NCBI RefSeq assembly: GCF_001550095.1
Contig: NZ_LRUC01000036.1
Location: 1 to 64,000 of the forward strand
DNA length: 64,000 nt
From: Celeribacter ethanolicus
GTDB lineage: Bacteria; Pseudomonadota; Alphaproteobacteria; Rhodobacterales; Rhodobacteraceae
Direction: 5' to 3'
The position numbers were made by a program, and so were the translations under genes. Below are positions 42,647 to 51,939 of the stretch, piece after piece; the stretch's first letter is position 1, and the number at the start of each line of letters is the position of its first letter. The notes below the pieces were generated by a model. That model had not been told where the DNA came from. It made no database searches and saw only the letters and a program-made list of their open reading frames with translations.

Positions 42647-44022
42647 AAATTTCCTTCCACGGAGCCGCCCGCGAGGTGACGGGCTCGTGCCATCTGATCG
42701 AATGCGGGGGCAAGAAGATCCTTGTCGATTGCGGCATGTTTCAGGGTGGGCATGAGCTTCATGACGATAATGCCGCGGAGTTCGGATTCAATCCGAAAGA
42801 CATCGACGTGGTGTTGCTGACCCATGCCCATCTCGACCACTGCGGGCGTTTGCCCTTGCTGGTGAAACGCGGCTTTGACGGCGAGATCATCGCCACATCG
42901 GCCACCCGCGATCTGGCGCGGCTTGTGATGATGGATTCCGCGCATCTCCACGAAGAAGAGGCGCGGCGGCACCATCGTCATGGCGAGCGGGGCGGTCACA
43001 ACGAGCCGCTCTATGACACGATGGATGCGCTCGATGCGGTCGACCTGTTCGGGCGCAACGCGGCCTATCGCCAGCCGATTCATCTCTTTCCCGGCATCAC
43101 GGCGACCTATTTCGACGCGGGCCATATCCTTGGCTCCGCCTCAATCCGATTGGAGCTGTCGGAGAACGGGCGGCGCAAGGTTGTGCTGTTCTCGGGCGAT
43201 CTCGGACCACAGGAGCGTCCGCTTCTGAACAACCCGGTGCCGCCGGACGATGTCGACGTGGTGATCATGGAGACCACTTACGGCGATCGTGATCACCGCA
43301 GTCTGGAGGCCTCGGTCGAGGAGTTCTACGATGCGGTCAATGCGGCGGATGCCCGTGGCGGCAATGTCATCATCCCGACCTTTGCTTTGGAACGGGCGCA
43401 GGAATTGCTCTGGTTTCTTCGCGACGGTATGACCAAGGGGCGCATCCGGCGCTCGATGGCGGTGTTCCTCGACTCGCCGATGGCGATCTCTGCGACGCGG
43501 ATTTTCAAACGCCATCAGGATGTCATGCGCCCGGAGCTGCGCGATCAGTTTCGCGCGGGCAAGGACCCGTTCGATCTGCCGGAGCTGCATTTCACCCGTG
43601 AGGCGCAGGATTCGATGGCGCTCAACCGCATCCGTTCCGGTGCGGTGATCATGGCGGGGTCGGGCATGTGCACTGGCGGGCGGGTGCGTCACCACCTGCG
43701 TCATAACCTGTCACAGGCGGATTGTTCCGTGATTTTCGTGGGCTACGCCGCCGAGGGCACTTTGGCGCGGATCATCATCGACGGGGCGAAAGAGGTGAAA
43801 CTCTTCGGCGAGATGATCCCTGTGCGGGCGCAAATCCATACGATCAACGGATTTTCCGCCCATGCCGATGCCGACGATCTTCGGCACTGGCTGGGGCAGA
43901 CCGGCACGCCGGAACGTGTGTTCCTCGTCCATGGCGAGGCCCGCGCGATGAAGGCCTTTGCCGAGACGCTGGATGTGCCGGAGATCGAGATGCCCACCGT
44001 GGGGCAGAGTTTCGATCTCTGA
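42643..44022 (+). CDS. MBL-fold / beta-CASP RNA-metabolising hydrolase
   Basis: A 459-residue protein of the CPSF/beta-CASP type. The metallo-beta-lactamase zinc motif is THAHLDHCGRLP (~60-71). Further metal-site residues lie in FDAGHILGSASI, FSGDLG and the beta-CASP motif A METTYGDRDH. The C-terminal part contains IIMAGSGMCTGGRVRHHL-like (AVIMAGSGMCTGGR) and IHTINGFSAHADADDL with the final His motifs. Such proteins cleave RNA endonucleolytically or exonucleolytically. An insertion EEEARRHHRHGERGGHNEP near residue 105 is His-rich. It ends at a strong terminator, closing the N-ATPase region. Confidence 0.9.
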   Translation: MKISFHGAAREVTGSCHLIECGGKKILVDCGMFQGGHELHDDNAAEFGFNPKDIDVVLLTHAHLDHCGRLPLLVKRGFDGEIIATSATRDLARLVMMDSAHLHEEEARRHHRHGERGGHNEPLYDTMDALDAVDLFGRNAAYRQPIHLFPGITATYFDAGHILGSASIRLELSENGRRKVVLFSGDLGPQERPLLNNPVPPDDVDVVIMETTYGDRDHRSLEASVEEFYDAVNAADARGGNVIIPTFALERAQELLWFLRDGMTKGRIRRSMAVFLDSPMAISATRIFKRHQDVMRPELRDQFRAGKDPFDLPELHFTREAQDSMALNRIRSGAVIMAGSGMCTGGRVRHHLRHNLSQADCSVIFVGYAAEGTLARIIIDGAKEVKLFGEMIPVRAQIHTINGFSAHADADDLRHWLGQTGTPERVFLVHGEARAMKAFAETLDVPEIEMPTVGQSFDL

Positions 44023-44060
44023 GGTGAGACCGTCGACGAAAGTGGCGATGAAAAATTAGG

Positions 44061-44096
44061 CGCCCTGCCCGAATCTCCCGCGATTCCGGCAGGGCG
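44061..44096 (+). terminator. terminator closing the N-ATPase/LOG/beta-CASP operon
   Basis: CGCCCTGCC and GGCAGGGCG form a perfect 9-bp stem with an inner GAATC/GATTC stem, followed by ttgcgtttt. Confidence 0.8.
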
Positions 44097-44176
44097 TTGC
44101 GTTTTCGCCGTGAAGCCATCGGGACCGCCTTCTAATCTGGCTGCAAACCAGACTGCGAAAGGGCGAAGGCAGGACT

Positions 44177-47100
44177 ATGGCGATCTACGCATCCATTCAT
44201 CACGTCACCCATTACAAATACGATCGCAACGTCGAGCTTGGCCCCCAGATCATCCGCCTGCGCCCCGCGCCGCATTCGCGCACCCGGGTGATTTCGCATT
44301 CGCTCAAGGTGACGCCCGCCGGGCATTTCGTGAACCACCAGCAAGACCCTTACGGCAACTGGCAGTCCCGCTTCGTCTTCCCGGAACCGGTGCGCGAATT
44401 CAAGATCGAGGTCGATCTGGTCGCGGATATGACCGTCTATAACCCGTTCGATTTCTTCGTCGAGGAAAGTGCGGAACATTGGCCGTTCGAATACCCGGAC
44501 GATCTCAAGGACGATCTGGTGATCTACCGCACGCCGGAGCCCGAAGGTCCGCTTTTGGCGCAATTCATGGGCGCGCTCGATTTCCCGAAAGATGGGGAAA
44601 AGGTCCGCACGGTCGATTTCCTTGTCGGGCTGAACGCCAGGATTTCCGATTTCGTGGATTACACCATCCGCATGGAACCGGGGGTGCAGACGCCGGATGA
44701 GACGCTGTCGTGCAAATCCGGGTCGTGCCGCGACAGTTCCTGGTTGCTGGTGCAGGTGCTGCGCCATCTGGGTTTTGCCGCGCGCTTCGTCTCCGGTTAT
44801 CTCATTCAGCTCAAACCCGATCTTGAGGCGCTCGATGGGCCCTCCGGTACGGATCACGATTTCACAGACCTGCACGCCTGGTGCGAAGTCTTCCTTCCCG
44901 GTGCGGGCTGGATCGGGCTCGATCCGACTTCCGGGCTTTTGACCGGGGAAAGCCATATTCCTCTGGCTGCGACGCCGCATTATCGCAACGCAGCGCCCAT
45001 CGCCGGGGGCTTTTCCTCGGTCGGCACGCCCGAGGTCACCTTCGATTTCGACATGCAGGTCAAACGCGTGGCCGAACATCCCCGGATCACCAAACCCTTC
45101 TCGGAGGAAAGCTGGGATCGGCTCAACGCGCTGGGACACAAGGTGGACGAGGCGCTGAAAGAGGGCGACGTGCGCCTGACCATGGGCGGCGAGCCGACCT
45201 TTGTGTCGATCGACGATTTCGAGAGCGATGAATGGAATACCGCCGCCGTCGGGCCGCAAAAACGCGGATTGGCCGACAAGCTGATCCGGCGTCTCAGGGA
45301 TCGCTTTGCGCCCGGTGGTTTCCTGCATTACGGGCAGGGCAAATGGTATCCGGGCGAAAGCCTGCCGCGGTGGACCTTTTCACTCTATTGGCGTCATGAC
45401 GGCAAACCGGTCTGGAAGAATCCCGATCTGATCGCCAAGGAAGACACGCCTGCCCCCGCCGGGGCGAAAGAAGCGGGCGATTTCATGAAAAGCTTTGCGG
45501 CGAACCTTGGCGTCGATCCGGAGAATGCCCAGCCTGCTTATGAGGACCCCGGCGAGTGGATTTTGAAGGAATCGCTCCTGCCGGAAAACGTCACGCCGGA
45601 GAACAACAAGCTCAAAAACCCCGAAGATCGCGCGCGTTTCGCCCGCGTGTTCTCCCGTGGCCTGACAGAACCGTCGGGCTATGTTTTGCCGATCCAGCGG
45701 TGGCAATCGAAAGCGGGGTCGAGCTGGCTCTCCGAGCTTTGGAAAACCCGACGCGGGCATCTGTTTCTGATCCCCGGTGACAGCCCGGTGGGCTTCCGCC
45801 TGCCGCTCAATGCCTTGCCCTATATCCCGCCCGCCGCCTATCCCTATTCCTACCCCGCCGATCCGATGATGGATCACGCGCCTCTGCCGGATTTCCATGC
45901 CGCACTCGACGAACGCCGCAAAAAGGTGCGCGAAGAGATCGCCCAGATGGAACGGGAAGAGGCCGCGCGCATCGCATTGGAGGCCAAGGAGCGCGCCGAG
46001 ATGCTGCCCGAAACCACGGGCGAGCGCAGTCAGCCGGTGTCCGAGGCGCAGAGCGACGGTGTGGAACGGCAAAGGATCATGGCGCAGGGCGTCGATCCGA
46101 AAGGCGGTCAGGTGCGGACCGCGATCACCATCGAGCCGCGCGACGGACGTTTGTGCCTGTTCATGCCGCCCTGTGAGACGTTGGAGGATTATCTCGAACT
46201 GCTCGCCACGGCGGAAACCACCGCCGAGGAGCTTGGCCTGCCGATCCATATCGAGGGCTATTCCCCGCCGCACGATCCGCGTCTCAATGTCATTCGCGTC
46301 GCCCCCGATCCGGGTGTGATCGAGGTGAACATTCATCCGGCCCATAGCTGGGACGATTGTGTGGCGACGACCGAAGCGATCTATGAAGAGGCGCGCCAGT
46401 CGCGGCTTGGCGCCGACAAGTTCATGATCGACGGGCGGCACACCGGCACAGGCGGCGGCAACCACGTTGTGGTCGGTGGCGCGACGCCGTCGGACTCGCC
46501 TTTCCTGCGGCGTCCGGATTTGCTCAAGTCGCTGATCCTGATCTGGCAACGGCACCCGTCGCTGTCCTACCTGTTCTCGGGTCTGTTCATCGGCCCGACC
46601 TCTCAGGCCCCGCGCATCGACGAAGCCCGCCACGACACGCTCTACGAGCTGGAAATCGCGCTGTCGCAGATCAAACCGCCCTCCGAGGCCGCCGTGCCGC
46701 CCGCGTGGCTGGTCGACCGTCTCTTGCGCAACATGCTCACCGATGTGACCGGCAACACCCACCGGGCAGAAATTTGCATCGACAAACTGTTCTCCCCCGA
46801 TGGGCCGACCGGCCGTCTGGGCCTTGTCGAATTCCGCGGTTTCGAGATGCCGCCGGACCCGCGCATGTCTCTGGCGCAGCAGCTTCTGTTGCGCGCCATC
46901 ATCGCGCGCTGTTGGAATGTGCCCATTGAGGGCAAGCCGGTGCGCTGGGGCACGGTGCTGCACGACCGCTTCATGTTGCCGCATTACCTCTGGGATGACC
47001 TGCTCTCGCTTCTGGCCGATCTCAAACATCACGGGTTCGACATGGACCCGGAATGGTACAAGGCGCAGGCCGAGTTCCGTTTCCCCTTCTGCGGTCAGAT

Positions 47101-47632
47101 CGAAGCGGAAGGCGTGCATCTTGAGGTCCGCCAAGCACTTGAGCCTTGGCATGTGCTGGGCGAAACCGGCGCCATCGGCGGCACGGTGCGTTACACGGAC
47201 AGCTCCGTCGAGCGACTTCAGGTCAAGATGACGACGCTGCATCAGGACCGCTATCGGATCATGTGCAACCGCCGCCCCGTGCCTTTGGCGAAAACCCAAA
47301 CCTCCGGTGTTTCGGTCGCGGGCGTTCGGTTCAAAGCCTGGCAACCGCCTGAAGCGCTGCACCCGGTGTTGCCGGTCAATGCGCCGCTGCATTTCGACAT
47401 TTATGACGATTGGAGCGGGCGTCCGATTGCGGGCTGTACCTATCACGTCGCGCACCCTGGCGGGCGGAACTACGACACCTTCCCCGTCAATGGTAACGAG
47501 GCAGAGGCGCGGCGTCTGGCGCGGTTCGAACCTTATGGCCATACCCCCGGAAGCTATACGCCGGGAACCGAAGTGCCGCACCCGGAGTTCCCCTTGACGC
47601 TTGACCTCAGACGGCCCATTGGGCTCATCTGA
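44177..47632 (+). CDS. transglutaminase-like protein with DUF2126 C-terminal region
   Basis: A 1151-residue cytoplasmic protein with no signal peptide. An N-terminal bacterial transglutaminase domain opens with [32 protein letters not shown]. Its catalytic triad is intact: C184 in SGSCRDSS, H233 in [10 protein letters not shown]249 in GLDPTSG. After residue ~320 comes DUF2126 ([75 protein letters not shown]), conserved but of unknown activity. It is the first gene of a three-gene operon with a circularly permuted ATP-grasp/alpha-E protein and another transglutaminase. Such operons have been predicted to make, attach or cleave peptides; no substrate is known. Confidence 0.9.
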
Positions 47633-47662
47633 GGTATCTGACGACGAGACCGGACTTTCGCA

Positions 47663-50083
47663 ATGACGCAAAACCCGATACGGGTCTCCGCCCAGCCGGA
47701 CCTGTTTGCCTCCTATGGGCAAACCTCCGGTGTGGCCGACGAGCTGTTCGACGCCACGGGCCAGATGCGGCCCGTGTGGCGCCGTTTTGTCGATCGGTTT
47801 TCCCGGCTGTCTCCTGAAGACATCCGCGCCCGCTTTGAGCGCGGGGATCAATACCTGCGCGATGCGGGCGTGTTTTTTCGGCAATATTCCAACGATCCCC
47901 TCGCCGAACGCGCCTGGCCGCTGTCGCATATTCCGGTGATCCTGCATGAGCTGGAATGGGAGCATATCTGCGCGGGTCTGACGCAACGCGCCGATCTGCT
48001 CGAACGAGTGATGGCCGATCTTTACGGCCCCGGCAGCCTTGTCAGTGACGGCCACTTGCCCGCGGAACTGGTGGCGCGCTCGCCGCAATGGTTGCGCCCG
48101 ATGGTGGGGGTTGAGCCGCGCGGCGGGCATTATCTGCATTTCATCGCCTTCGAGATCGGGCGCTCGCCGGATGGCTCGTGGTTCGTTTTGGGCGATCGCA
48201 CGCAGGCACCTTCGGGGGCGGGCTTTGCGCTTGAAAACCGGATGGCGACGGGGCGGATTTTCCCCGAACGCTTCCCGCGCGCGCATATTCACAAACTGGC
48301 CGGGTTCTTCAGCGCCTTCCGCGAGGCGACCGAGGAGCTGGCTTCGCCGTCCTACAAACACCCGCGCATGAGCGGCATCCTGACGCCCGGACCGTCGAAC
48401 GACACCTATTACGAACATACCTATATCGCGCGCTACCTCGGCATGATGCTGCTCGAAGGCGAGGACATCGTGGTCGAGAATGGTGAGGCCATGGTGCGGA
48501 CCATCGAGGGGTTGCAGCCGCTTGGCATGCTCTGGCGCCGGATCGACGCCCTGTTCGCCGATCCGCTGGAATTCAACCCCACCTCGCAGATCGGCACGCC
48601 CGGTCTGATGGAGGCCGTCCGCACCGGGCATCTGGCGATGGCCAATGCGTTTGGCTCGGGTGTCTTGGAAATGCGGGCGATGATGGCGTTTCTGCCCCGG
48701 ATCAGCGAGGTGCTGATGGGGGAGGCTCTCAAACTGCCGAACATCGCGACGTGGTGGTGCGGTGGTGTGAACGAGCGCAACTATGTGCGAGACAATGCCC
48801 AAAACATGCTGATCAGCCCGGCGGATGCGGTGGACTTGCCCTTTGATCTTGGCGCGACCACGGCGCTGGGCGGCGAGTTCCGCGGCACGGCTATGGGGTC
48901 TATTGCTGACTGGCTCGATCGCGAAGGCGACCGGTTGGTGGGACAGGAGGCGGTGACGCTCTCGACCACCCCAGCTTGGGATGACGATGGTGAAAGCGGA
49001 AGCCTCGTGCCGCGTCCGATGACCGTGCGGGTCTTTGCGGCGCGGACTGCGCTGGGTTGGCATTTCATGAAGGGCGGCTACGCGCGGATCGGCAGTTCCG
49101 ACGACGCCACGGCGCTTGCGATGCAGCGCGGCGGGTCCGTGGCCGACGTTTGGGTGGTCTCCGACCGGCCTCTGCCGAAGGAAGGTCCGAAGCGTCAGGT
49201 GGAAGGCAATTATCGCCGCGTCAGCCCCGGCGTGCTTCCGGCGCGCGCCGCCGACAATCTGTATTGGCTCGGGCGCTATATGGAGCGGACCGAGGATGCC
49301 GCGCGTCTGGTACGGGCCTATCATCTGCGGCTGGCAGCGACCGACAACCGCAACGATCCGCGTCTGAAGATGTTGCGCGACTATCTCGAAGGCTTCGGTA
49401 TCGACCTTGCTCAGCCCATGCCCGAAGCTCTGATCACCCGGATCGCGGCGGCGCGCAATTGTGCCATGCGGGTGCGGGACCGGTTCTCGACCGATGGCAT
49501 GTCGGCGCTTGGCGATCTGTTGAAAACCGCGACGCGGATGCTTGAAACGGTTCAGCCCGGCGATGACAGTGCGCGGGCTATGTCGGTTTTGGTGCGCAAG
49601 ATCGCCGGGATCACCGGGCTCGTGCATGAAAACATGTATCGCTTTGCGGGCTGGCGGTTTCTGAGTTTCGGGCGTGCCCTTGAACGTGCCGATGCGATGG
49701 CCGCCCTTCTGGCGGCGTTTTCCGATCCGAAAGCGCCCGAAGGCTCGCTCGATCTTGCGGTCGAGGTGGGCGATTCGATCATCACCCACCAGCGTCGGTA
49801 TCGTGTTGAGAGCAATCGCGACACGGTGGTCGATCTTCTGGCGCTCGATGCCGACAACCCGCGCGGGTTGTTGTTCCTCGTGCGGGAACTGCGCAAACAT
49901 GCCGAGGCTTTTCCCAACGCACAGCTGCATGGCCGTCCGTCGGAATTGCTCCGGGTGATCCTGCCGCTTGAGACCGGGATCGCCTGTGCCCGGACCGAGG
50001 AAATGACGGTGGCGCGGTTCAATGCGATCCGGGGCGAGTTGGCGCGCATCTCCGATCTGCTGTCCTCGATCTATTTGAGGTAA
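47663..50083 (+). CDS. circularly permuted ATP-grasp / alpha-E domain protein
   Basis: An 806-residue two-domain protein. Residues ~60-490 are the circularly permuted ATP-grasp region (formerly DUF404/DUF407): SDGHLPAELVARSPQWLRPMVGV, GSWFVLGDRTQAPSGAGFALENR, ILTPGPSNDTYYEHTYIARYLGMMLLEGEDIVV, GSGVLEMRAMMAFLP and NIATWWCGG. Residues ~510-806 are an alpha-E domain (formerly DUF403) starting VSPGVLPARAADNLYWLGRYMERTEDAARLVRAYH. ATP-grasp enzymes join carboxylates to amines, so a peptide-ligase role is predicted; the fusion with alpha-E in one chain is common in proteobacteria. It lies 30 bases after the first transglutaminase gene and 3 bases before the second. Confidence 0.9.
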   Translation: MTQNPIRVSAQPDLFASYGQTSGVADELFDATGQMRPVWRRFVDRFSRLSPEDIRARFERGDQYLRDAGVFFRQYSNDPLAERAWPLSHIPVILHELEWEHICAGLTQRADLLERVMADLYGPGSLVSDGHLPAELVARSPQWLRPMVGVEPRGGHYLHFIAFEIGRSPDGSWFVLGDRTQAPSGAGFALENRMATGRIFPERFPRAHIHKLAGFFSAFREATEELASPSYKHPRMSGILTPGPSNDTYYEHTYIARYLGMMLLEGEDIVVENGEAMVRTIEGLQPLGMLWRRIDALFADPLEFNPTSQIGTPGLMEAVRTGHLAMANAFGSGVLEMRAMMAFLPRISEVLMGEALKLPNIATWWCGGVNERNYVRDNAQNMLISPADAVDLPFDLGATTALGGEFRGTAMGSIADWLDREGDRLVGQEAVTLSTTPAWDDDGESGSLVPRPMTVRVFAARTALGWHFMKGGYARIGSSDDATALAMQRGGSVADVWVVSDRPLPKEGPKRQVEGNYRRVSPGVLPARAADNLYWLGRYMERTEDAARLVRAYHLRLAATDNRNDPRLKMLRDYLEGFGIDLAQPMPEALITRIAAARNCAMRVRDRFSTDGMSALGDLLKTATRMLETVQPGDDSARAMSVLVRKIAGITGLVHENMYRFAGWRFLSFGRALERADAMAALLAAFSDPKAPEGSLDLAVEVGDSIITHQRRYRVESNRDTVVDLLALDADNPRGLLFLVRELRKHAEAFPNAQLHGRPSELLRVILPLETGIACARTEEMTVARFNAIRGELARISDLLSSIYLR

Positions 50084-50086
50084 GCC

Positions 50087-50977
50087 ATGCTTTATGATGT
50101 CAGCCTGACCATCGACTATAGCTATGATGCCGCCTCCGACCGGACGCGTAACATCCTGCGGCTTTTGCCCTCCGATATCCCCGGCGTGCAGACCGTGCGG
50201 CAAAGACTGCTAACGGTCCATCCGCGCCCGCAGGAGCGCCGCGACGGGCGCGATTTTTTCCTCAACGAAACCAGTATGGTGGCGTGGCACCGGCCGATTG
50301 ACGCGCTGAAACTGCAACTGACCGCCCGGATCGAACGGTTTGAACCGGCACCGATTTTCGACTTCTCACCGCCGCTCGACGAGTTGCATCATGAGCTGTT
50401 GATGGTGCCGTCTCTCGCCCCGGAAGCGCCGCATCATTTCATCGCCGCCTCGCCGCGCGTCGCGCTTTCGGGGGCGATTACGGAGTATGCCTGGGAGTGC
50501 CTGAACGAAGGCGTGACCGCCTTGGGTGCGGTCGAGGCCGTTGGGCGGGCGCTCAATCGCGACATGGCTTTCGATCCGGAGGCGACCGATGTCGATACGC
50601 CGCCCGAGGAGGCGTTTGAGAAACGCCACGGCGTCTGTCAGGATTTCGCCCATGTGATGATTGCGGCCCTGCGCGGCATTGGCATTCCGGCGGGGTACGT
50701 TTCGGGTTTTCTGCGCACCTTCCCGCCGCCGGGTCAGCCGAGGCTCGAAGGCGCGGATGCGATGCATGCCTGGGTGCGCGCCTGGGTTGGCAACCAATTG
50801 GGCTGGATTGAATTCGACCCGACGAACAATCAGTTCGCCGGGACGGATTACATCACCATCGGCTATGGCCGCGATTACGAGGACGTGGCCCCCGTCCGGG
50901 GCGCGATGCGCACCTCCGGCGGGCATGAAACCTCACAGGCGGTCGATGTGCTGCCGATCGAAGAAGGCGCGGCTTAG
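50087..50977 (+). CDS. transglutaminase-family protein
   Basis: A 296-residue protein: N-terminal beta region (LYDVSLTIDYSYDAASDRTRNILRLLPSDIPGVQ) and a transglutaminase core with C184 in HGVCQDFAHVMIAALR, H227 in AMHAWVRAW and D244 in EFDPTNNQF, followed by YITIGYGRDYEDVAPVRG typical of the bacterial group. Only 3 bases separate it from the ATP-grasp gene, so the three are surely one transcript. A peptidase or transamidase role on the ATP-grasp product is predicted. Its last 4 bases overlap the end of the convergent gene. Confidence 0.9.
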   Translation: MLYDVSLTIDYSYDAASDRTRNILRLLPSDIPGVQTVRQRLLTVHPRPQERRDGRDFFLNETSMVAWHRPIDALKLQLTARIERFEPAPIFDFSPPLDELHHELLMVPSLAPEAPHHFIAASPRVALSGAITEYAWECLNEGVTALGAVEAVGRALNRDMAFDPEATDVDTPPEEAFEKRHGVCQDFAHVMIAALRGIGIPAGYVSGFLRTFPPPGQPRLEGADAMHAWVRAWVGNQLGWIEFDPTNNQFAGTDYITIGYGRDYEDVAPVRGAMRTSGGHETSQAVDVLPIEEGAA

Positions 50978-51939
50978 ACCGACGCCAGAAGGGCTTCGAT
51001 ATGCGCCGGCCCTGTGGGGCGAATGCCGGTGGGATTGAGCGCCTTGATCGAATAATAGCCTCGCGTGATGTGATCCATATTCACCGTTGCCCGGATGCCC
51101 GGAAGGCGCAGAATGCGCTCCATATAGGCCGAGAGGCGAGGGTAATCCGCGATCTGTTTGCGATTACATTTGAAGATGCCGTGATAGGCGGCATCAAAGC
51201 GGATCAGGGTCACGAAGGTGCGAATATCCGTTTCGGTCAGATGTTCGCCGAACTGGTAGGTGCCGGTGAGCCGGTCTTCCAACGCTTCCAGCATCTCGAA
51301 CACGCCCTCGACCGCCTCATCGTAAGCCTCCTGCGAAGAGGCAAACCCTGCCTTGTAGACCCCGTTGTTGAGCTTGTCGTAGATCTGCGGGTTCAGCGCG
51401 TCGATCTCGCCTGCGAGCTCCTCCGGGTAGAGCCGGACATCCGAGGGCACGAGATGTTCAAACGCGGTGTCGAGCATGCGGATGATGTCGGCGCTCTCGT
51501 TGTTGACGATGGTTTCCGTCTTGGTGTCCCACAGAACCGGCACCGTGGCCCGCCCTGACACATGCGGATCGGCGCGGGTGTAAAGCTCGTGAAGATAGGC
51601 GGCCCCATACAGCGGATTGGCCACGTCGGCGCCCGGATAGCCGCCGAATTGCCACCCCTGATCGGTCAGCGTCGGGTTCAGCACCGTCACGGGAATGATT
51701 TCTTCGAGCCCTTTGAGGGCCCGCGCCATCAGAGTGCGCGAGGCCCAGGGGCAGATATAGGCGACGAAAAGCCGGTAACGCCCGGCTTCCGCCTTGAAAC
51801 CGCCCACACCCGTCGGCCCCGCAGAGCCGTCCGGCGTGATCCAGTTGCGAAAGCTCGACACTTGCCGCACGAAGCGGCCTTTCTTGTCGGCCTTCTGAAC
51901 CGGGGTCCAGTTTTTCGTCCAAACGCCTTCAACAAGCAT
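50974..51939 (-). CDS. yqjG: glutathionyl-hydroquinone reductase (YqjG/ECM4-type GST)
   Basis: A 321-residue Xi-class glutathione transferase that reduces glutathionyl-hydroquinones. The catalytic Cys is near residue 64 in YICPWASRTL, and the family marks SFRNWITPDG, VLWDTKTETIVNNESADI and DIRTFVTLIRFDAAYHGIFKCN are present. It starts 11 bases after the dioxygenase gene on the minus strand, suggesting an operon for quinone/catechol handling, divergent from a LysR regulator. Confidence 0.92.
   Translation of the reverse strand: MLVEGVWTKNWTPVQKADKKGRFVRQVSSFRNWITPDGSAGPTGVGGFKAEAGRYRLFVAYICPWASRTLMARALKGLEEIIPVTVLNPTLTDQGWQFGGYPGADVANPLYGAAYLHELYTRADPHVSGRATVPVLWDTKTETIVNNESADIIRMLDTAFEHLVPSDVRLYPEELAGEIDALNPQIYDKLNNGVYKAGFASSQEAYDEAVEGVFEMLEALEDRLTGTYQFGEHLTETDIRTFVTLIRFDAAYHGIFKCNRKQIADYPRLSAYMERILRLPGIRATVNMDHITRGYYSIKALNPTGIRPTGPAHIEALLASV

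Follow-up and report, generated by a model that had tools for sequence, protein, structure and literature searches.

A Celeribacter ethanolicus transglutaminase operon with a degenerate permuted ATP-grasp protein and a candidate DUF2126 ligase

INTRODUCTION

A stretch of 64,000 nucleotides from Celeribacter ethanolicus (contig NZ_LRUC01000036.1, positions 1 to 64,000; called the window in the following) contains three adjacent genes, which encode two transglutaminase-like proteins, A and C, and between them a circularly permuted ATP-grasp protein, B. The locus raises the question which of these proteins would make a bond and which would cut it. A first-pass annotation of the window had assigned ligation to the ATP-grasp protein, and the two transglutaminases were considered as possibly the only hydrolases of the system. 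The genes are common, as at least 593 stretches were matched in one scan of public genome contigs for protein A.

RESULTS

Protein B: a predicted ATP-grasp fold without the usual metal and ATP residues

The three open reading frames, both Cys-His-Asp triads and the intergenic gaps of 30 bases (A to B) and 3 bases (B to C) were found as first annotated. Pfam assigned CP_ATPgrasp_2 (418.5 bits), CP_ATPgrasp_1 and Alpha-E (171.2 bits) to protein B, which bears out its description as a single-chain permuted ATP-grasp with alpha-E. In ATP-grasp enzymes such as glutathionylspermidine and glutathione synthetase, an E-x-N motif and a preceding aspartate bind Mg, and a lysine and a Gly-rich loop bind ATP. 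Multiple alignment of 96 fused B proteins and 22 stand-alone permuted ATP-grasps (numbering follows the ATP-grasp encoded on contig C35 of the C. ethanolicus genome) revealed that Glu159, Asn161, Lys320, Lys367, Gly373, Gly374, Gly376, Asp427, and Asn459 are each kept in 22/22 stand-alone proteins. In the fused B proteins, few or no sequences retain Glu159 (1/96), Asn161 (0/96), Lys320 (1/96), Lys367 (7/96), Asp427 (0/96), or Asn459 (1/96). The loop glycines were found in 5/96 (Gly373), 21/96 (Gly374), and 24/96 (Gly376) sequences, single counts that depend on the alignment as the loop varies in length. For the set Glu159, Asn161, Lys367, Asp427, and Asn459, 87 of the 96 proteins keep none and nine keep one. 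The window copy carries E164, G177, and R179 at the Mg-ligand places and S385, L396, and T399 at the ATP-loop places, so that neither the D...E-x-N arrangement nor the lysine with its Gly-rich loop is present.

The model of protein B reached a pLDDT of 83.8, and a structure search with it returned 3n6x first (E 2.2e-29; TM 0.87 by target), followed by glutathione synthetases. Structure prediction, which had been proposed for the ATP-grasp site, supported the fold, but residues 391–410, in the area of the missing loop, are among the poorest of the model (pLDDT <50). The permuted ATP-grasp fold is present both in this predicted model and by Pfam; on alignment, protein B keeps it without the usual metal- and ATP-binding residues. 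The joining reaction is more likely carried out by a neighboring protein, since B lacks these residues.

In the earlier proposal, B would serve as peptide ligase in a three-gene system that suffices by itself, the hydrolases being A and C, and loss of the ATP- and Mg-binding residues had been named as the finding that would overturn this. Domain names and operon order speak for such an assignment. On alignment, however, the E-x-N motif, the loop lysine and the Gly-rich loop are absent from B, most B proteins keep not one of the five catalytic positions listed above, the DUF2126 domain of protein A is overlooked, and 19 of the 21 genomes with DUF2126 encode a stand-alone ATP-grasp as well. We regard this model as highly improbable.

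A second possibility is that B is rewired rather than dead, with an Asp-Arg motif (most commonly DRTQAP) in place of the metal-binding E-D-N, and that it performs another reaction or uses a nucleotide in another way. The pocket does not drift freely: the place of Asn161 is taken by arginine in 87/96 fused proteins, the equivalents of Asp282, Arg429, and Asp468 are kept in 96/96, and the fold is retained in the model. The arginine replacement and the invariant Arg429 and Asp468 equivalents argue for a site conserved in a new form instead of one in decay. The place of Asp146 holds aspartate in 58/96 and glutamate in 38/96 sequences. A precedent is the pseudokinase SidJ, which was found to glutamylate proteins, according to an excerpt of the published work. 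The lysine and the Gly-rich loop are replaced, however, by sequence that is variable in kind and length; together with the poor model at residues 391–410, this looks more like loss than rewiring, and we consider a rewired B unlikely.

Thinning left 20 stand-alone ATP-grasps among the 92 sequences used for a tree, and a branch with 100/100 support separates these 20 from all others; the tree is unrooted, and the divergent long open reading frames L169 and L172, the latter on a very long branch, were assigned to the B side. The literature searched for these domain names and for degenerate or permuted ATP-grasps yielded no paper that calls B inactive; Iyer et al. 2009 lies outside that coverage.

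Protein A: DUF2126 as the candidate ligase

The description of the first protein was correct as to its transglutaminase triad but missed the domain that makes up three quarters of the chain. Besides Bact_transglu_N and Transglut_core, Pfam assigned DUF2126 (PF09899) to protein A with 1323.2 bits (Table 1). C184, H233, and D249 were each kept in 103/103 aligned sequences (window copy counted). The DUF2126 region (residues 286–1151) holds 110 polar positions with ≥97% conservation among the same 103 sequences, and its identity to the window copy is 51–70% in the class loci. Over the whole chain, A is better conserved than B (55–73% vs. 29–55% identity to the window copy).

Within DUF2126, GGEPT may correspond to G-x-E-x-E, which we take to be the metal motif of glutamine synthetase, and DPGVIEVN to what is presumably the second metal-binding region of that enzyme. 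GTGGGNH resembles what we believe to be the glutamine-synthetase NGSG-x-H loop. Profile comparison of DUF2126 covered six proteins of the same genome, five glutamine synthetases and a GCS2 protein. The GGEPT and DPGVIEVN regions align in order with the presumed glutamine-synthetase metal regions (E 0.036 and 0.16, not significant), and nothing of note was found in the comparison with the one GCS2 protein. A Foldseek search with the model of A (pLDDT 70) gave the bacterial transglutaminase-like protein 3isr as top match (E 3e-9). Among the 50 matches listed, 18 are glutamine or gamma-glutamylmethylamide synthetases (E 0.034–0.42), and the others are transglutaminases and a few further proteins. 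Our own fold and profile tests are no more than consistent with DUF2126 being a glutamine synthetase-like ligase. On balance, we lean toward DUF2126 as the ligase of the operon; B would then be a partner that is either non-catalytic or rewired, and an active-type ATP-grasp would take part.

This genome encodes five proteins in which the glutamine-synthetase catalytic domain is present, on contigs C2, C13, C38, and C41; C2 carries two of the genes, separated by about 1.2 kb.

Protein C and the remaining features of the window

Protein C, with Bact_transglu_N and Transglut_core by Pfam, is by its sequence the second intact transglutaminase-type protein of the operon: C184 and H227 were kept in 95/95 and D244 in 92/95 aligned sequences (window copy counted). 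The core domain and the triad are present in both A and C, and a hydrolase or transferase role is putative for both. No NCBIfam family matched A, B, or C at E 0.01. A role in anti-phage defence was rejected, as PADLOC models matched 0/3 operon proteins at E 0.01. A convergent glutathione S-transferase gene (50974–51939, minus strand) overlaps the end of the C gene by 4 bases.

Table 1. Features of the A-B-C operon in the window
Feature	Position	Strand	Basis and remarks
Protein A gene	44177..47632	+	ORF, 1151 aa; transglutaminase-like domain aa 1–285, DUF2126 ligase-like domain aa 286–1145
Triad C184, H233, D249 of A	44726..44923	+	Codon starts 44726, 44873, 44921; 103/103 sequences
DUF2126 (PF09899) domain of A	45032..47611	+	1323.2 bits, residues 286–1145
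GGEPT of A, aa 337–341	45185..45199	+	Invariant; weak profile alignment; proposed counterpart of glutamine-synthetase G-x-E-x-E metal motif
DPGVIEVN of A, aa 711–718	46307..46330	+	Conserved; weak profile alignment; proposed counterpart of second metal-binding region of glutamine synthetase
GTGGGNH of A, aa 757–763	46445..46465	+	Conservation only
Protein B gene	47663..50083	+	ORF, 806 aa; degenerate circularly permuted ATP-grasp fused to Alpha-E
CP_ATPgrasp_2 domain of B	47933..49090	+	Pfam
G177-D178-R179 of B	48191..48199	+	E-D-N here in stand-alone relatives (alignment)
S385 of B	48815..48817	+	Aligned with Lys367 in stand-alone relatives
Alpha-E domain of B	49235..50077	+	Pfam
Protein C gene	50087..50977	+	ORF, 296 aa; stand-alone transglutaminase-like cysteine hydrolase (putative), C184/H227/D244

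Gene order in relatives

The family search covered 142 genomes of the class from nearly as many families, and DUF2126 was found in 21 of them (the window's own counted). From the scan of public contigs the best 80 loci were kept, by their titles mostly from Alphaproteobacteria, with one Nitrospirales metagenome-assembled genome. With four records from a plasmid collection (Burkholderia cenocepacia, Enterobacter roggenkampii, Caballeronia, and Azospirillum), 20 class loci and the window, the set comprised 105 A loci, of which six were cut off downstream and 99 were usable. B lies downstream of A on the same strand in 93/99 usable loci, its open frame beginning no more than 300 bases past the end of A in 85 of these 93, and 90 have C as well. 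The commonest layout is A-B-C without another core gene (83 loci). As gene order and strand are kept in relatives, the arrangement is not due to chance. ATP-grasp and Alpha-E genes adjoin A in loci L038, L043, L049, L133, L134, L135, and L136.

No universal extra gene emerged: among the 26 largest neighbor clusters, none occupies a fixed place in most of the 105 loci. The largest (30 loci, mixed positions) is an ABC-transporter ATPase, as identified from its representative only. A B and C pair occurs in L168, L170, and L171, in genomes in which DUF2126 was not detected, which suggests that B and C form a module of their own.

A gene for a putative zinc metallopeptidase that also has a zinc ribbon (Peptidase_Mx, PF15887) was repeatedly found close to A, in a cluster of 10/105 loci (among them L044, L048, L088, L093, L099, L107, L111, and L126). 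It lies upstream of A on the opposite strand in eight of the ten members, and the domain scan refers to the L126 member only. A like-named gene adjoins A in Caballeronia (L136:7814–8875). Peptidase_Mx exceeded the family cut-off in 8/142 genomes, all eight with a stand-alone permuted ATP-grasp and five with DUF2126; the family search did not find it in the window's genome.

The locus L135, on the IncFII plasmid NZ_CP116251.1 of Enterobacter roggenkampii, comprises five genes in the order ATP-grasp, Alpha-E, A, B, and C. Transposase genes flank it, those on one side being of the IS110 and IS6 families and the one on the other side of IS26 type. Being plasmid-borne between transposase genes, this locus may travel.

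An active-type ATP-grasp and an Anbu peptidase on another contig

The assembly (4.2 Mb, 52 contigs) contains six transglutaminase-core matches, two Alpha-E matches and two proteasome-family matches. A four-gene run on contig C35 (L033) encodes an ATP-grasp, Alpha-E, a transglutaminase and a proteasome-family protein, and this ATP-grasp keeps all compared catalytic positions on alignment. The proteasome-family gene is called Anbu because of its place and its relatives. Its product begins with M-T-Y and would, if the methionine is removed, have Thr1, Asp17 and a lysine at 32. These are the candidate catalytic residues of Anbu (PMC6376114; this and the other papers given by PMC number are drawn on in excerpt). 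The stronger proteasome-family match, on C51, is taken as a putative HslV.

Regarding the proteasome-like peptidase, the first-pass annotation was right that no COG3484-type gene lies in the operon: the proteasome-family genes are on C51 and C35 and none is on the operon's contig, C30. The genome search nevertheless places an Anbu-type gene on C35, so the 'missing' peptidase exists, since that contig carries an ATP-grasp/alpha-E/transglutaminase/Anbu operon. The suggestion that A and C are the only hydrolases falls with this operon, which adds a further transglutaminase and Anbu beside an active-type ATP-grasp.

The CP_ATPgrasp_2 matches in the 142 genomes were split by open-frame length into stand-alone ATP-grasps (45 genomes) and fused B proteins (22 genomes). 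The stand-alone form is present in 19/21 genomes with DUF2126 (own genome counted) vs. 26/121 others (Fisher p 1.8e-9, uncorrected for phylogeny or genome size). The two DUF2126 genomes lacking it are 84% and 74% complete assemblies. Fused B was found in 17/21 and Anbu in 14/21 DUF2126 genomes, and all 35 genomes with Anbu have a stand-alone ATP-grasp.

Relation to nitrogen limitation

In B. cenocepacia, the genes I35_5080-83 (DUF404/407, DUF403, and two transglutaminase-like) depend on NtrC, the changes listed for the mutant ranging from -6.0 to -9.4 (PMC5491218). The related locus from another strain of this species, in the order ATP-grasp, Alpha-E, transglutaminase, A, B, and C, probably corresponds to I35_5080-83. 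A -24/-12-like sigma-54 site (L134:5383; 11/12 positions) precedes the likely start of the B. cenocepacia ATP-grasp gene by about 65–80 bases, and a 12/12 site lies ahead of the ATP-grasp/Anbu operon in L179. The Anbu operon of Pseudomonas putida belongs to the nitrogen-limitation response, alongside a urea transporter (PMC7801951, PMC3325844, and PMC8050072). PP_2686-2688 were 11- to 15-fold up in the first strain column of PMC7801951, with only 1.12 for the Anbu gene PP_2685 in the same column; PP_2685 was 11-fold up in PMC3325844 and reached log2 4.4 in PMC8050072. An excerpt on marine metagenomes associates these domains with urea metabolism. As published relatives are under NtrC or nitrogen control, the system may, by analogy and with less certainty, serve nitrogen-limited growth.

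No sigma-70-type promoter was found in 43900–51200 (1.3 expected).

DISCUSSION

The operon would form a module for making and cutting bonds. The DUF2126 domain of A would activate a carboxylate with ATP and then join it to an amine; by analogy with its superfamily, the carboxylate may be the gamma-carboxylate of glutamate. Hydrolysis or transfer of the same type of bond would fall to the transglutaminase-like domains in A and C. B might be a subunit without catalytic activity that binds substrate or regulates, perhaps belonging to the active ATP-grasp/alpha-E pair whose genes lie elsewhere in the genome.

Several observations weigh against this assignment, in addition to the uncorrected co-occurrence statistic. 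The model of A is of medium confidence, and the link of DUF2126 to glutamine synthetase is not significant in the profile comparison (best E 0.036, probability 1.4%). Four of the 21 DUF2126 genomes lack fused B (in two of these, G025 and G124, A is near a contig end), and five other genomes encode fused B but no DUF2126. As A and B are also found apart, A does not strictly require B as a subunit. Sigma-54 sites before A in relatives showed no clear enrichment (score ≥11, 2/101 with 0.25 expected; score ≥10, three with 3.3 expected), and none was found near the window operon. The operon is of the predicted amidoligase/transglutaminase kind, as first annotated, and the literature searched contained neither a proven substrate nor a product or activity for A, B, or C.

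The system may act on a small nitrogen compound instead of tagging proteins: A would gamma-glutamylate an amine or amide, which the cysteine hydrolases together with Anbu would set free again, for scavenging or storage during nitrogen starvation. This reading concerns the nature of the substrate and keeps DUF2126 as ligase, so that both can hold. It agrees with NtrC control or induction with urea transport genes in relatives, as excerpted above, with the marine association with urea metabolism, and with the occurrence of gamma-glutamylmethylamide synthetase in the weak structural matches to A. The supporting data come from relatives, however, and the size of A is large compared with that of ligases for small molecules; a protein tag is equally unproven. 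We consider a small compound plausible, without expecting it. More tentatively still, B may found a conserved pseudo-ATP-grasp family beside the DUF2126 ligase, with an active paralogue elsewhere, and serve as substrate adaptor or allosteric switch of a nitrogen-controlled conjugation system with its own Anbu peptidase.

Shifting the putative ligase role from the ATP-grasp to DUF2126, with B degenerate, tells which protein to assay and which mutants are meaningful, and indicates that an active partner ATP-grasp should be sought at other loci of the genome. The question of what Anbu/alpha-E/transglutaminase systems build becomes directly testable.

Comparison with known systems

The amidoligase and peptide-tagging systems reportedly predicted by Iyer et al. 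in 2009 share with the operon the ATP-grasp, alpha-E, transglutaminase-like, and glutamine synthetase-like ligase parts. The window operon differs in that the catalytic residues are missing from the ATP-grasp that it encodes itself, and in that the peptidase gene is located on a different contig. Rv2569c is presumably the C-type neighbor of the A-like protein Rv2566, an assignment not used here; an excerpt of a 2024 paper calls it a serine protease. Rv2566-type proteins share with A the fusion of an N-terminal transglutaminase-like domain to a ligase-superfamily domain, and the excerpted account does not treat an ATP-grasp neighbor (PMC2588565). The systems of Iyer et al. are cited in PMC6376114 and PMC5666114.

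The Anbu operon (ATP-grasp, alpha-E, transglutaminase, and Anbu), present as the four-gene copy on C35, has domain families in common with A-B-C but differs by split genes, an active-type ATP-grasp, an Ntn peptidase and the lack of DUF2126. For the Yersinia Anbu operon, phosphate release by the ATP-grasp was observed, with neither peptidase activity of Anbu nor a stable complex (PMC6376114). The predicted fold of B is shared with 3n6x, a putative glutathionylspermidine synthase, and with glutathione synthetases; 3n6x has the E-D-N, VVK and Gly-rich loop that B lacks. RloABC of Pseudomonas shares the logic of ATP-grasp, transglutaminase-like protein and peptidase, and RimBK that of ligase and peptidase (PMC12239564). 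Both differ from the operon by an unrelated retropepsin-like peptidase, and the excerpt mentions neither alpha-E nor DUF2126.

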